Positions 37,097 through 39,973 of a stretch of 64,000 nucleotides of DNA are shown here, piece after piece (within the stretch, counting starts at the first letter, position 1; each line of letters starts with the position of its first letter). The DNA is from OCS155 cluster bacterium AG-426-D23 (GTDB lineage: Bacteria > Actinomycetota > Acidimicrobiia > Actinomarinales > Actinomarinaceae). A program made the position numbers and the translations under genes. The stretch lies in NCBI GenBank assembly GCA_003213165.1, contig QCNO01000003.1, forward strand, positions 85,009-149,008, in the 5' to 3' direction. The notes under the pieces were generated by a model. That model was not told the origin of the DNA. It saw only the letters and a list, made by a program, of their open reading frames with translations, and did no database searches.

Positions 37097-37181
37097 GCAA
37101 AAATCCCGATTGATCTTGCGACCCTTCGGGATTTTCTGTTCTATCTTCTTTTCTATCTTTCGATTTCTTTTCCGATAGTGT
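37097..37181 (-). ncRNA. Candidate small RNA or leader, about 85 bases
   Basis: The 193-base gap between metY and the exonuclease gene holds, on the minus strand, a promoter-like pair (listed separately) followed by a purine-rich stretch with a five-base hairpin (CTATC...GATAG, within 37153-37180) and then a strong intrinsic terminator. That makes a short transcript independent of metY. It might instead be an attenuated leader of the exonuclease gene, whose ATG lies about 40 bases after the terminator. It matches no RNA family I know. Confidence 0.4.
37099..37135 (-). terminator. Intrinsic terminator after metY / candidate small RNA
   Basis: Stem AAAATCCCGA/TCGGGATTTT with a 16-base loop, followed on the minus strand by a run of five T. 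Within the loop side, CCCGAAGGG could form a competing small stem. It probably ends messages from metY and the candidate small RNA. Confidence 0.65.
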
Positions 37182-37187
37182 TTTATA

Positions 37188-37216
37188 AATATACGTCAGT
37201 TTTTCAACTTATGCAA
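37188..37216 (-). promoter_or_regulatory. Candidate promoter of the small RNA
   Basis: On the minus strand, TTGCAT (37216-37211), 17-base spacer, TATATT (37193-37188). The start would be near 37181. The -35 is a half match, the -10 has one mismatch. Confidence 0.4.
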
Positions 37217-37253
37217 GATATTTACTAATCTATTTTTCGCGAACTTTATGGAG

Positions 37254-38534
37254 CTATTTTGTACTTTCAAGTGCTTGTGAGAGATCTTCAACGATATCTT
37301 CAATGTCTTCAATGCCGATTGACAGTCTAATTAGTTCAGGTGGTGAACCTGCTTCAATAAGTTGATCTTCATCTAATTGTGAATGAGTTGTTGTTGCTGG
37401 GTGAATAGCTAGGGATCTAGTGTCTCCTACATTAGCAACATGCCTAAACATTTTTAGATTGTCTATAAATTTTTGTCCAGCGTCTTTTCCACCTTTGATC
37501 CCAAAAACCACCATTGTTCCACCAGTGCCTTTCAAATACTTTTTAGAAAGGTCATATGCCGGATCATCTTTGAGTCCAGGAAATCTAACCCATTCCACAA
37601 GCTCATGTCCAGACAAGTACTCCGCAGCTTTAATTGCATTCTCACAATGACGCTCCATTCTTAGAGCTAGTGTTTCAAGTCCACTCAAAACTTCAAAAGC
37701 AGTATCTGGAGACATATTCGCACCAAGGTTTCTTAATGGAACTGTTCTAAGTCTGAGGGAGTATGCAACATTTCCTAAGTCACCAAGGTCATGACCCCAT
37801 CTCATACCTCCATAGCTGGTATCGGGTTTATCATAAAGTGGAAAATTACCATTACCCCAATCAAAGCCACCCTTTTCAATTACTGCACCTGCAATAACTC
37901 TTCCGTGACCAGACATCCATTTTGTTAATGAATAGACAACAATATCAGCATCAAATTCAAATGGTTTTAGTATTGCTGATGTTGTAAAAGTTGCATCAAC
38001 AATTAATGGAATTCCCTTTGAATGAGCAATGTCCGCTAATGCAGAAATATCAGCAACAACTAGGCCTGGGTTGGTTATTGTTTCACAATAGATCGCTCTA
38101 GTCTTTTCGTCGATTGCCGATTCAACAGCTTCAAAATCTGTAATGTCTACTTTTTTGGAATTAATACCATATTCTGGCAAAATATTGTCAAACATTGTAT
38201 ATGTTCCACCATAAAGTTGGTTTGCAGTAACAAAATTGTCTCCTTGACTCATAATGTTGATGAGTGAATACATTACAGCAGAGGTTCCTGAAGATAATGC
38301 TACACACATAGCACCGTCTTCAAGAGCAGTTAATCTAGCCTCAAGTGCTCCAACAGTTGGGTTGCCTAATCTAGAATAAATGTTACCAAACTCTTTTAAT
38401 CCAAATAGATTTGCAGCGTGTTCAGTATTATTAAATTGATAAGCTGTTGTTCTGTAAATAGGCACTGTTATTGAACCTTCCGAATTTTCATCAGAATCCC
38501 AACCTGCATGTATCAATTTTGAATTAAATCTCAT
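37254..38534 (-). CDS. metY: O-acetylhomoserine sulfhydrylase (MetY type)
   Basis: A PLP enzyme of the Cys/Met metabolism family that makes homocysteine from O-acetylhomoserine and sulfide. Marks: YSRLGNPTVGALEARLTALE near residue 54, SSGTSAVMYSLINI, the cofactor Lys in VYSLTKWMSGHGRV near residue 208, RLRTVPLRNLGANMSP and the MetY-type end SLAIHPATTTHSQLDEDQ near residue 382. Length 426 is right for MetY and longer than cystathionine gamma-synthase. The ATG has AAGGAG at six bases; that site can be hidden by a hairpin in the SAM riboswitch leader. metK, the next step to SAM, lies upstream with its own riboswitch. Confidence 0.9.
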   Translation of the reverse strand: MRFNSKLIHAGWDSDENSEGSITVPIYRTTAYQFNNTEHAANLFGLKEFGNIYSRLGNPTVGALEARLTALEDGAMCVALSSGTSAVMYSLINIMSQGDNFVTANQLYGGTYTMFDNILPEYGINSKKVDITDFEAVESAIDEKTRAIYCETITNPGLVVADISALADIAHSKGIPLIVDATFTTSAILKPFEFDADIVVYSLTKWMSGHGRVIAGAVIEKGGFDWGNGNFPLYDKPDTSYGGMRWGHDLGDLGNVAYSLRLRTVPLRNLGANMSPDTAFEVLSGLETLALRMERHCENAIKAAEYLSGHELVEWVRFPGLKDDPAYDLSKKYLKGTGGTMVVFGIKGGKDAGQKFIDNLKMFRHVANVGDTRSLAIHPATTTHSQLDEDQLIEAGSPPELIRLSIGIEDIEDIVEDLSQALESTK

Positions 38535-38538
38535 AAAT

Positions 38539-38650
38539 TTCTCCTTAAATTTGGAGAAGGATTTTGACTACTTAGTTGCAATTTTGCCACATCTTTAGGC
38601 ACCTTGGATAGTCTTCCAGGTTGCCGAGGTCTTAACCTTCTCTTTATGCT
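38539..38650 (-). promoter_or_regulatory. SAM riboswitch controlling metY translation (SAM-I clan, compact)
   Basis: Minus-strand leader. Core (38649-38586): GCATAAAGAGA, a short P2 hairpin (AGGT-TAAG-ACCT), CGGCAACC, P3 hairpin (TGGA-AGACTA-TCCA), AAGGTGCC, then GATGTGGC. AAGAGA, CAGCAACC/CGGCAACC and AAGGTGC in this order are the SAM-I signature; P2 is cut to a tetraloop stem without kink-turn, as in SAM-I/IV-type variants. Platform: CCTTCTCC (38560-38553) can pair with the SD (GGAGAA, 38544-38539) or with GAGAAGG of the aptamer 5' strand (38642-38636). Folded aptamer should therefore free the anti-SD and close translation. Confidence 0.87.
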
Positions 38651-38657
38651 TACAAAA

Positions 38658-38663
38658 ATTATA
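38658..38663 (-). promoter_or_regulatory. -10 box of the metY riboswitch promoter
   Basis: Perfect TATAAT on the minus strand, between the metK stop (38683) and the riboswitch; transcription would start near 38650, exactly at the aptamer's 5' end. The -35 region (TTAGTT at 17 bases) is weak. metY thus has its own promoter. Confidence 0.6.
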
Positions 38664-38682
38664 TCAAAATATTTTGACATAA

Positions 38683-39771
38683 CTAAATATTTTCTATTTT
38701 TTCCCAGTTCCTTTCTGGGTCTCCAAAATGAGAAAAAAGTGTGTCAGTCGTATAATCAACACTTGTTAAATTTAACCTTTCAATAATTGCTCCGGGTTTC
38801 ATGTCAAAAGCTCGAACAAAATCATTTAGTTTCCTGTCATTCACTTTAAGAGTATCGAAAGTTTCAATTGTTAATTCATAAGGTTCAGCTTTTCCGATAG
38901 CATATGAGACCCTAACCAGGCATTCCTCTGCTAAATCATGGGCTACAATATTTTTAGCTAAATGCCTAGCAGCATAAGCAGCAGATCGATCCACTTTACT
39001 TGGATCTTTACCTGAAAAAGCTCCGCCACCTACCGGCACAGTAGGTCCATATGAGTCAACTACTATTTTTCTTCCTGTTAGGCCTGTATCTCCAGCTGGT
39101 CCACCTTTGATAAAAGAGCCCGATGGATTTAAATCTAATTCGAAATTTCCAGAAACATGCTTAGAAACAATTTTGGAAACTTCATCATGAAGATTTTCCA
39201 TATCGATATCTTTATGGTGTTGAGTCGAAACAACAATCCTTGTTTTTTCTCCTCCACTGGTAACTTGTACTTTAGAATCTAAATCTAAAAATTCATTAGA
39301 ATTTTGAAGTTCCCACATATCTTTTTGTATATTTCTTGATTTATCAAATGTTGGTGGCATGAATGATTCAGTCTTATTTGTTGCAAAACCAACCATAATT
39401 CCCTGGTCTCCAGCACCTTGATCTGTATCATCTTCAACTGCAGCACGGATTTCTTCAGACTGCGGTGTCAGCTCATTAAAAATTGACAAATTCTGTAAGT
39501 TAAAATCTTCAAAACTTGTTTTTATTGTTTTATTTAAGGCTTCTTTCACAATACTGATTATGTCTTCTGTTGTGATATTAGCAATTTCACTTATTTCTCC
39601 TCCAACAAGAACTAAGCCACCTTTTTTTGTACCCGTAAGAAAAGTTTCTACTGCGACTCTTGACGAACTATTATTTTCTAAAGCTTTTGTCAATACATTA
39701 TCAGATATAAAATCTGCGATTTTGTCGGGATGACCAGGTGAAACTGTCTCAGCAGTTACAAATTTAGTCAA
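38683..39771 (-). CDS. metK: S-adenosylmethionine synthetase
   Basis: Makes SAM from methionine and ATP. Motifs: SPGHPDKIADFISDNVL near residue 11, GDQGIMVGFATNKT with the GAGDQG site near residue 112, and the glycine-rich phosphate loop PVGGGAFSGKDPSKVDRSAA near residue 250. I take TTG 39771 (MTKFVTAETVSPGHPDK) because GGAGG lies five bases before it; the TTG at 39783 lies at the edge of that ribosome binding site. The 362 residues are a little fewer than the usual 380-400. A SAM riboswitch fills its leader, giving direct product feedback. Confidence 0.94.
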   Translation of the reverse strand: MTKFVTAETVSPGHPDKIADFISDNVLTKALENNSSSRVAVETFLTGTKKGGLVLVGGEISEIANITTEDIISIVKEALNKTIKTSFEDFNLQNLSIFNELTPQSEEIRAAVEDDTDQGAGDQGIMVGFATNKTESFMPPTFDKSRNIQKDMWELQNSNEFLDLDSKVQVTSGGEKTRIVVSTQHHKDIDMENLHDEVSKIVSKHVSGNFELDLNPSGSFIKGGPAGDTGLTGRKIVVDSYGPTVPVGGGAFSGKDPSKVDRSAAYAARHLAKNIVAHDLAEECLVRVSYAIGKAEPYELTIETFDTLKVNDRKLNDFVRAFDMKPGAIIERLNLTSVDYTTDTLFSHFGDPERNWEKIENI

Positions 39772-39776
39772 CTTTT

Positions 39777-39890
39777 CCTCCAATTATATTTTATGCAAGA
39801 GATTTGAAAATACCATTTTTTGTCGTTAAACCACATCAAAAAGCACCTTAGTTGGTAATCTAGGTTGCTGAGGATTCCCTCTCTTTATGC
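39777..39890 (-). promoter_or_regulatory. SAM riboswitch controlling metK translation (SAM-I clan, compact)
   Basis: Minus-strand leader with the same core as the metY one (39890-39831): GCATAAAGAGA, P2 hairpin (GAGG-GAAT-CCTC), AGCAACC, P3 hairpin (TAG-ATTACCAA-CTA), AAGGTGC, GATGTGG. P2 again lacks a kink-turn. Downstream, TCTCTT (39802-39797) can pair with AAGAGA of the aptamer (39885-39880) or, with G-U pairs, with the SD GGAGG (39781-39777). The same three-strand choice is thus present in both leaders, with different bases, which supports it. Binding of SAM should lower MetK synthesis. Confidence 0.87.
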
Positions 39891-39973
39891 AAACCTCATG
39901 GTAATAAAATAAATAATCTTTTTCAAAGAACTTATATGAAAGATTAAATTACCAAATTAGCTAATCTTCTTGT

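Follow-up and report, generated by a model that had tools for sequence, protein, structure and literature searches.

Two leaders on the minus strand of the window (the whole stretch of DNA analysed here, 64,000 nucleotides from Candidatus Actinomarina, a marine actinobacterium), one preceding metY and one preceding metK, raise the question of which RNA strand serves as the switch in a compact SAM riboswitch. An earlier note on this DNA had proposed that the 5' strand of the aptamer does so, by competing with the ribosome binding site for a pyrimidine segment downstream. The first gene, metY (37254–38534, minus strand; NCBIfam TIGR01326, 552.6 bits against a cutoff of 495.1), lies downstream of the first riboswitch and encodes O-acetylhomoserine sulfhydrylase, for homocysteine synthesis; the second, metK (38683–39771, minus strand; TIGR01034, 351.0 bits against a cutoff of 309.4), encodes methionine adenosyltransferase. 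The metK start is most likely the TTG at 39771–39769, the point at which all relatives align, and the start of the longer, mechanically called open reading frame is disfavoured on that ground. A purine-rich stretch with a terminator-like hairpin at its end (AATCCCGA...TCGGGATTTTTGC) lies at 37110–37250 (minus strand), between metY and the next gene.

SAM-I/IV aptamers in the metY and metK leaders

In a scan of the whole window with Rfam 15, three features exceed the threshold: a tRNA and the two SAM-I/IV aptamers. The metY aptamer (38562–38654, minus strand) scores 75.3 bits and the metK aptamer (39806–39895, minus strand) 61.8 bits with cmscan against RF01725, in each case over the full length of the model (1–99 of 99) and above its gathering score of 41.1 bits; in the comparison across the SAM clan in Rfam, the check that the earlier note had suggested, SAM-I/IV is preferred over the other SAM models for both leaders. 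We conclude that both leaders contain real riboswitch aptamers of the known SAM-I/IV family, for which SAM binding is predicted. The elements that had been listed for the two leaders (GCATAAAGAGA, a short P2, GCAACC, P3, AAGGTGC and GATGTGG) are all present on the minus strand where they had been placed, as are the downstream pyrimidine segments; the list had overlooked a P5 hairpin, present in both leaders in the cmscan alignment, and PK-2, a pseudoknot of L3.

P2 is a short uninterrupted hairpin in both leaders, without internal loop, kink-turn or loop pseudoknot, as had been described. Neither leader has the P2 kink-turn and P2-loop pseudoknot of SAM-I (RF00162), and neither has the P2a/P2b and PK-1 of SAM-IV (RF00634), a single short P2 standing in their place. 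What had been taken for a departure from textbook SAM-I is, by the RF01725 scores, ordinary SAM-I/IV, and the full fit to that model rules out a novel compact SAM-I class. The compact P2 is not a novelty, because a P2 without kink-turn is a published hallmark of SAM-I/IV (PMC2864571): Weinberg et al. (2010) described SAM-I/SAM-IV variants without the P2 internal loop, typically from metagenomes.

PK-2 joins L3 to the 3' tail. In metY, GACTA (38609–38613, minus strand) pairs with TAGTC (38570–38566, minus strand), which ends 5 nt upstream of the pyrimidine segment; in metK, TACCA (39853–39857, minus strand) pairs with TGGTA (39815–39811, minus strand). The complementarity is found in 56 of 56 leaders of the genus, including 32 of 32 metY leaders, and the metK leaders show the compensatory variants TACCA/TGGTA, TGCCA/TGGCA, AGCTA/TAGCT and AGCA/TGCT. 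An architecture of the same kind has been described for SAM-IV (PMC6890682).

Upstream of the aptamers, −10 boxes can be read from the sequence: TATAAT for metY (38658–38663, minus strand), retained at this position by almost all metY leaders in the genus, and TACCAT for metK (39898–39903, minus strand), in the arrangement TTGAAA, 17 nt, TACCAT, with TAnnAT retained at the corresponding position in relatives; a promoter scan of the metK leader gave no excess over shuffles. The boxes lie 8 nt (metY) and 7 nt (metK) before GCAT, with about the same spacing in relatives, and their position places the predicted transcription start no more than a few bases from each aptamer. We rejected a pairing between ATGGTA and the TACCAT that precedes the metK aptamer, since TACCAT is the −10 box and lies outside the transcript.

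The window's own genome (964 kb) holds exactly two copies of RF01725, the metY and metK leaders. Among named genomes, those of uncultured Candidatus Actinomarina are nearest, with MetK identities of 76–92%, and 28 of 34 same-genus genomes in a first survey carry at least one copy. At E ≤ 0.001, RF01725 has no match in the same-genus genomes G012, G018, G021, G022, G023 and G027, reflecting either assembly gaps or loss or divergence of the riboswitch; G012 and G021 are nonetheless about 90% complete. One contig assigned to the MAG of an uncultured gammaproteobacterium (CAJWNO010000031.1, L033) has an Actinomarina MetK (91% identity) and both riboswitches, and is probably mis-binned; a MetY search of viral contigs returned distant homologues only. 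In two Actinomarina genomes (L029, L030) a SAM-I/IV aptamer precedes a metF-like gene, an arrangement not seen in the window's genome. Three Actinomarina genomes contain a third RF01725-scoring RNA (L050:1057–1155, plus strand; L051:1100–1199, minus strand; L052:989–1088, minus strand) with an altered core (GCCAACC, AAGGTGG, AGGAGTGAATAAG) and a GAGGAA/TTCCTC pseudoknot. In each of the three genomes this RNA is followed by unrelated accessory genes, with a tRNA adjoining it in L050; it could be the leader of an island or a variant aptamer that binds a different ligand.

Pairing of the linker with the aptamer 5' strand

In the window, the segment that would act as anti-Shine-Dalgarno (anti-SD) in metY, CCTTCTCC (38553–38560, minus strand), can form a 7 bp pairing, GAGAAGG/CCUUCUC, with J1/2 and the P2 5' strand of the aptamer, the proposed anti-anti-SD (38636–38642, minus strand; complement of 38560–38554), or a 6 bp pairing, UUCUCC/GGAGAA, with the Shine-Dalgarno sequence (38539–38544, minus strand), from which the start codon is within a few nucleotides in all metY leaders. 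In metK, the linker segment TCTCTTGCA (39794–39802, minus strand), which includes TCTCTT at 39802–39797, can pair with the proposed anti-anti-SD GCATAAAGAGA (39880–39890, minus strand), made up of the P1 5' strand, J1/2 and the start of P2, through AAGAGA/UCUCUU (6 bp) and a GC/GC extension, or with the Shine-Dalgarno sequence GGAGG (39777–39781, minus strand; placed by the alignment of relatives) through UCUCU/GGAGG, which includes two G-U pairs. The claim that the pyrimidine segment has two alternative partners is thus borne out strongly for metY and more weakly for metK. Compared with dinucleotide-shuffled linkers, in the window alone, the alternative duplex has an energy of −10.2 kcal/mol for metY (p=0.027) and −8.2 kcal/mol for metK (p=0.077). 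Support from the window alone is mild, and the strong evidence for the alternative pairing comes from relatives. That two leaders agree had been offered as an argument against chance; this argument is weak, because the J1/2-P2 strand (AGAGAGG) and the Shine-Dalgarno sequence are both GA-rich, so that any anti-SD tends to fit the aptamer strand as well.

The genus sample comprises 32 metY and 24 metK leaders, 23 distinct metK leaders entering the covariation test. MAFFT alignments (A1, A2) had too many gaps in the linker for pairs to be counted column by column, and we therefore used swap tests, in which the pairing of each linker with the strand of its own leader is compared with its pairing with the strands of other leaders. 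For the 24 metK leaders, the mean energy of the linker with its own P1-5'/J1/2/P2-5' strand is −8.42 kcal/mol, and with those of other species −7.12 kcal/mol, with 0 of 5000 swaps as good; an energy-free complementarity score gives 0 of 10000. Eight other segments of the genus metK leaders, including P1-3', P3-L3 and P5, show no excess of own over swapped. The variable positions 5–6 of J1/2, after GCAT, read GG, GA, AG or AA (with two AT exceptions) and are answered in most genus metK leaders by linker CC, UC, CU or UU. On the metK tree the GG type and the GA type each form one well-supported clade, and therefore the independent covariation events are few; in L014 and L037 the linker has not followed recent changes in J1/2.

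In metY the GAGAAGG strand is invariant across 32 leaders and thus permits no covariation test, and the linker-aptamer pairing shows no own-vs-swapped difference. The metY anti-SD is conserved, as CCTTCTCC in 22 leaders, TCTTCTCC in six, CCTTCTCT in one and CCCTCTCC in three, the last with one aptamer-linker pair broken, while the hairpin loop varies freely. Also conserved is its 5' C(C/T), for which the aptamer GG is the sole possible partner.

Of the 296 Acidimicrobiia genomes covered by a class-wide search, 95 have RF01725 matches; in a search of the phylum, the family is rare outside this class. From the class we parsed 61 further leaders, mostly GC-rich, of which 40 have a usable linker; at several of the translated loci the leader precedes metX. 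Pairing with the 5' strand reaches p≤0.05 against shuffled linkers in 21 of the 61 leaders, and pairing with other segments in 2–8; two-thirds of the 61 leaders tested have no significant 5'-strand complement. The swap test over the 40 leaders gives −13.50 for own and −11.47 for swapped pairings (0 of 5000). The count is again 0 of 5000 within family f3 (17 leaders), where the control segments are flat. Using one leader per family (15 leaders) gives p of 0.001–0.027 over 20 draws, and one leader per genus inside family f3 (nine leaders) gives 0.003–0.081. Outside family f3 the control segments are slightly raised too (231 and 333 of 5000), and part of that signal may therefore be base composition.

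Several class linkers come close to being full reverse complements of the 5' strand: 15 of 16 positions pair in L055 (CGUAUCACGAGUGGUC with GACCGCUCGGGAUGCG) and 13 of 16 in L079, L058 is likewise striking, and in L101 CAUCAGGAG pairs with CUCCUGAUG. On rechecking class loci in Rfam, SAM-I/IV is above threshold in 14 of 17, L058, L114 and L111 being sub-threshold RF01725 matches. In L082, L093, L094, L096 and L103 the downstream strand is complementary to P3-L3, instead of or besides the 5' strand (for example, GGUGGCCCUCCC against GGGAGGGACACC); with such linkers in a minority of class leaders, the aptamer family has more than one platform.

The results show that the aptamer partner of the downstream segment is, as had been claimed, the 5' strand, with which the linker covaries in the metK leaders of the genus and across Acidimicrobiia. 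The swap tests and their control segments reject chance as the cause for metK and for the class, the rejection resting on covariation that metY does not display. A P1-3' exchange as in SAM-I is rejected by the lack of an own-vs-swapped signal for that strand, in genus metK and inside family f3 alike. Whether the SAM-I/IV riboswitches of Acidimicrobiia commonly share one platform is, in our estimate, evenly poised; in such a platform the anti-SD would be the reverse complement of the 5' half of the aptamer (P1-5', J1/2, P2-5'), SAM binding and ribosome blocking would compete for the same pocket nucleotides through the likeness of J1/2-P2 to a Shine-Dalgarno sequence, and other lineages would use P3-L3.

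Possible closure of the Shine-Dalgarno sequence and the proposed switch

The second half of the alternative, pairing of the linker with the Shine-Dalgarno sequence, differs between the genes. Nearly all relatives retain the metY hairpin UUCUCC/GGAGAA. For metK, pairing of the linker with the Shine-Dalgarno sequence is no better than with swapped linkers (6063 of 10000) or shuffled linkers; at class level it is marginal (213 of 5000). The compensatory changes in relatives that the earlier note had called for are therefore found for the 5'-strand pairing (0 of 5000), and for the metK anti-SD pairing do not rise above controls. Linker shuffles have little power here, because pyrimidine content alone sequesters the Shine-Dalgarno sequence. 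Withdrawing the aptamer strands from folding lowers its mean modelled exposure to 0.19 for both genes, from 0.51 in metK and 0.35 in metY, a drop in the expected direction that pyrimidine-rich linkers produce in such models anyway. For the window leaders, the fold with the alternative pairing and that with the Shine-Dalgarno hairpin are 1.2–1.5 kcal/mol apart at 37 °C and 0.7–2.9 kcal/mol apart at 20 °C, a modelled difference small enough that SAM binding could tip it; in the unforced metY fold the closed hairpin is favoured even without ligand.

According to the reading that we prefer, to which we assign a probability of about 0.75, both leaders are SAM-I/IV riboswitches that would repress translation of metY and metK at high SAM through exchange of the 5' strand. 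At low SAM, the 5' strand (P1-5', J1/2, P2-5') would leave the aptamer and hold the linker, and with the linker held the Shine-Dalgarno sequence would be free and the genes translated. At high SAM, P1, J1/2, P2 and PK-2 would lock around the ligand and release the linker, which would then pair with the Shine-Dalgarno sequence (through a 6-bp hairpin in metY and weakly in metK) and close translation. The invaded strand would hold part of the SAM pocket and be taken from the 5' side, not the P1 3' strand usual for SAM-I. The covariation data suggest that the aptamer 5' strand probably doubles as the switch that keeps the ribosome-blocking sequence away at low SAM.

The main rival is that PK-2 is the switch: the SAM-stabilised L3 pseudoknot alone would position or free the linker, and the 5'-strand complementarity would be secondary. 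In favour of this rival, the leaders do have a PK-2 that covaries, in metY 5 nt separate its end from the anti-SD, and the second strand in five class leaders (L082, L093, L094, L096, L103) is complementary to P3-L3. The SAM-I/IV crystal paper of Trausch (2014) is said to call PK-2 part of the regulatory switch. Against this, the linkers of metK and of family f3 covary with P1-5'/J1/2/P2-5' and not with P3 or L3, and we judge PK-2 unlikely to be the switch on its own; it may act together with 5'-strand exchange.

Alternatively, the pairing with the 5' strand could be a by-product of GA-rich sequence in both J1/2-P2 (GAGAGG) and the Shine-Dalgarno sequence (GGAGG), the leaders acting by plain anti-SD sequestration with no dedicated anti-anti-SD. 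The window-only p values of 0.027 and 0.077 and the metY leaders, without own-vs-swapped difference, agree with such a by-product, but a by-product would not track species-specific changes in J1/2, as the linkers do in the swap tests, run with control segments, for both genus and class, and the linker complementarity reaches into P1-5', which is not Shine-Dalgarno-like; we consider it improbable. That the leaders act mainly on transcription, through Rho or a distant terminator, with the Shine-Dalgarno hairpin incidental, is more improbable still: a terminator-like hairpin and U-run follow the third RF01725 RNA of three Actinomarina genomes, and transcriptional SAM-I/IV RNAs may therefore exist in the genus, but neither aptamer is separated from its gene, metY or metK, by an intrinsic terminator on the coding strand, and the metY anti-SD is conserved.

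Comparison with known systems

On the preferred reading, 5'-strand exchange, these leaders would provide a natural series of translational platforms, backed by covariation, whose exchanged strand holds part of the ligand pocket, and the near-complete complements in L055, L079 and L101 would be suited to probing. The reading would also carry an evolutionary rationale: a conserved aptamer strand that resembles a ribosome binding site makes an anti-SD capturable by that strand. The aptamer is already known, and the proposed strand-exchange platform is less usual and probably extends across the class; an earlier description of it is possible.

In SAM-I riboswitches it is usually the 3' arm of P1 that switches, whereas the covarying partner here is the P1-5'/J1/2/P2-5' strand. 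With SAM-I (S-box, RF00162) the leaders share the binding-core sequences and, as predicted here, the repression of methionine genes, and they differ in having no kink-turn, P4 or P2-loop pseudoknot. SAM-IV (RF00634; cryo-EM, PMC6890682) has in common with them a P5 hairpin and the pairing of L3 with the 3' tail in PK-2, but has a split P2a/P2b and PK-1 where the leaders have a single short P2 hairpin. With SAM-I/IV (RF01725, SAM-I-IV-variant, PMC2864571; crystal structure 4L81) the leaders share the SAM-I core, P2 without internal loop, P5, L3 pseudoknot, marine occurrence and association with methionine genes; compared with the crystallised RNA (4L81), the present leaders are shorter and without P4. 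The portions of the SAM-I/IV literature examined describe no expression platform of the metY/metK kind.

In the translational SAM-I riboswitch of Xanthomonas (PMC7270179), as would be the case here, a platform hairpin closes the Shine-Dalgarno sequence and start codon in a SAM-dependent manner; according to the parts of that report consulted, the anti-SD hairpin there stays formed when SAM is absent, and uncharged initiator tRNA opens it; those parts describe no 5'-strand exchange. A 2024 review regards strand-exchange processes as poorly understood and expression platforms as highly variable (PMC10907184). The strand-exchange riboswitches that it places in group 3 likewise have a switching sequence common to aptamer and platform; in that group the sequence lies mostly in the first helix, whereas here it would span P1-5', the ligand-contacting J1/2 and P2-5'.
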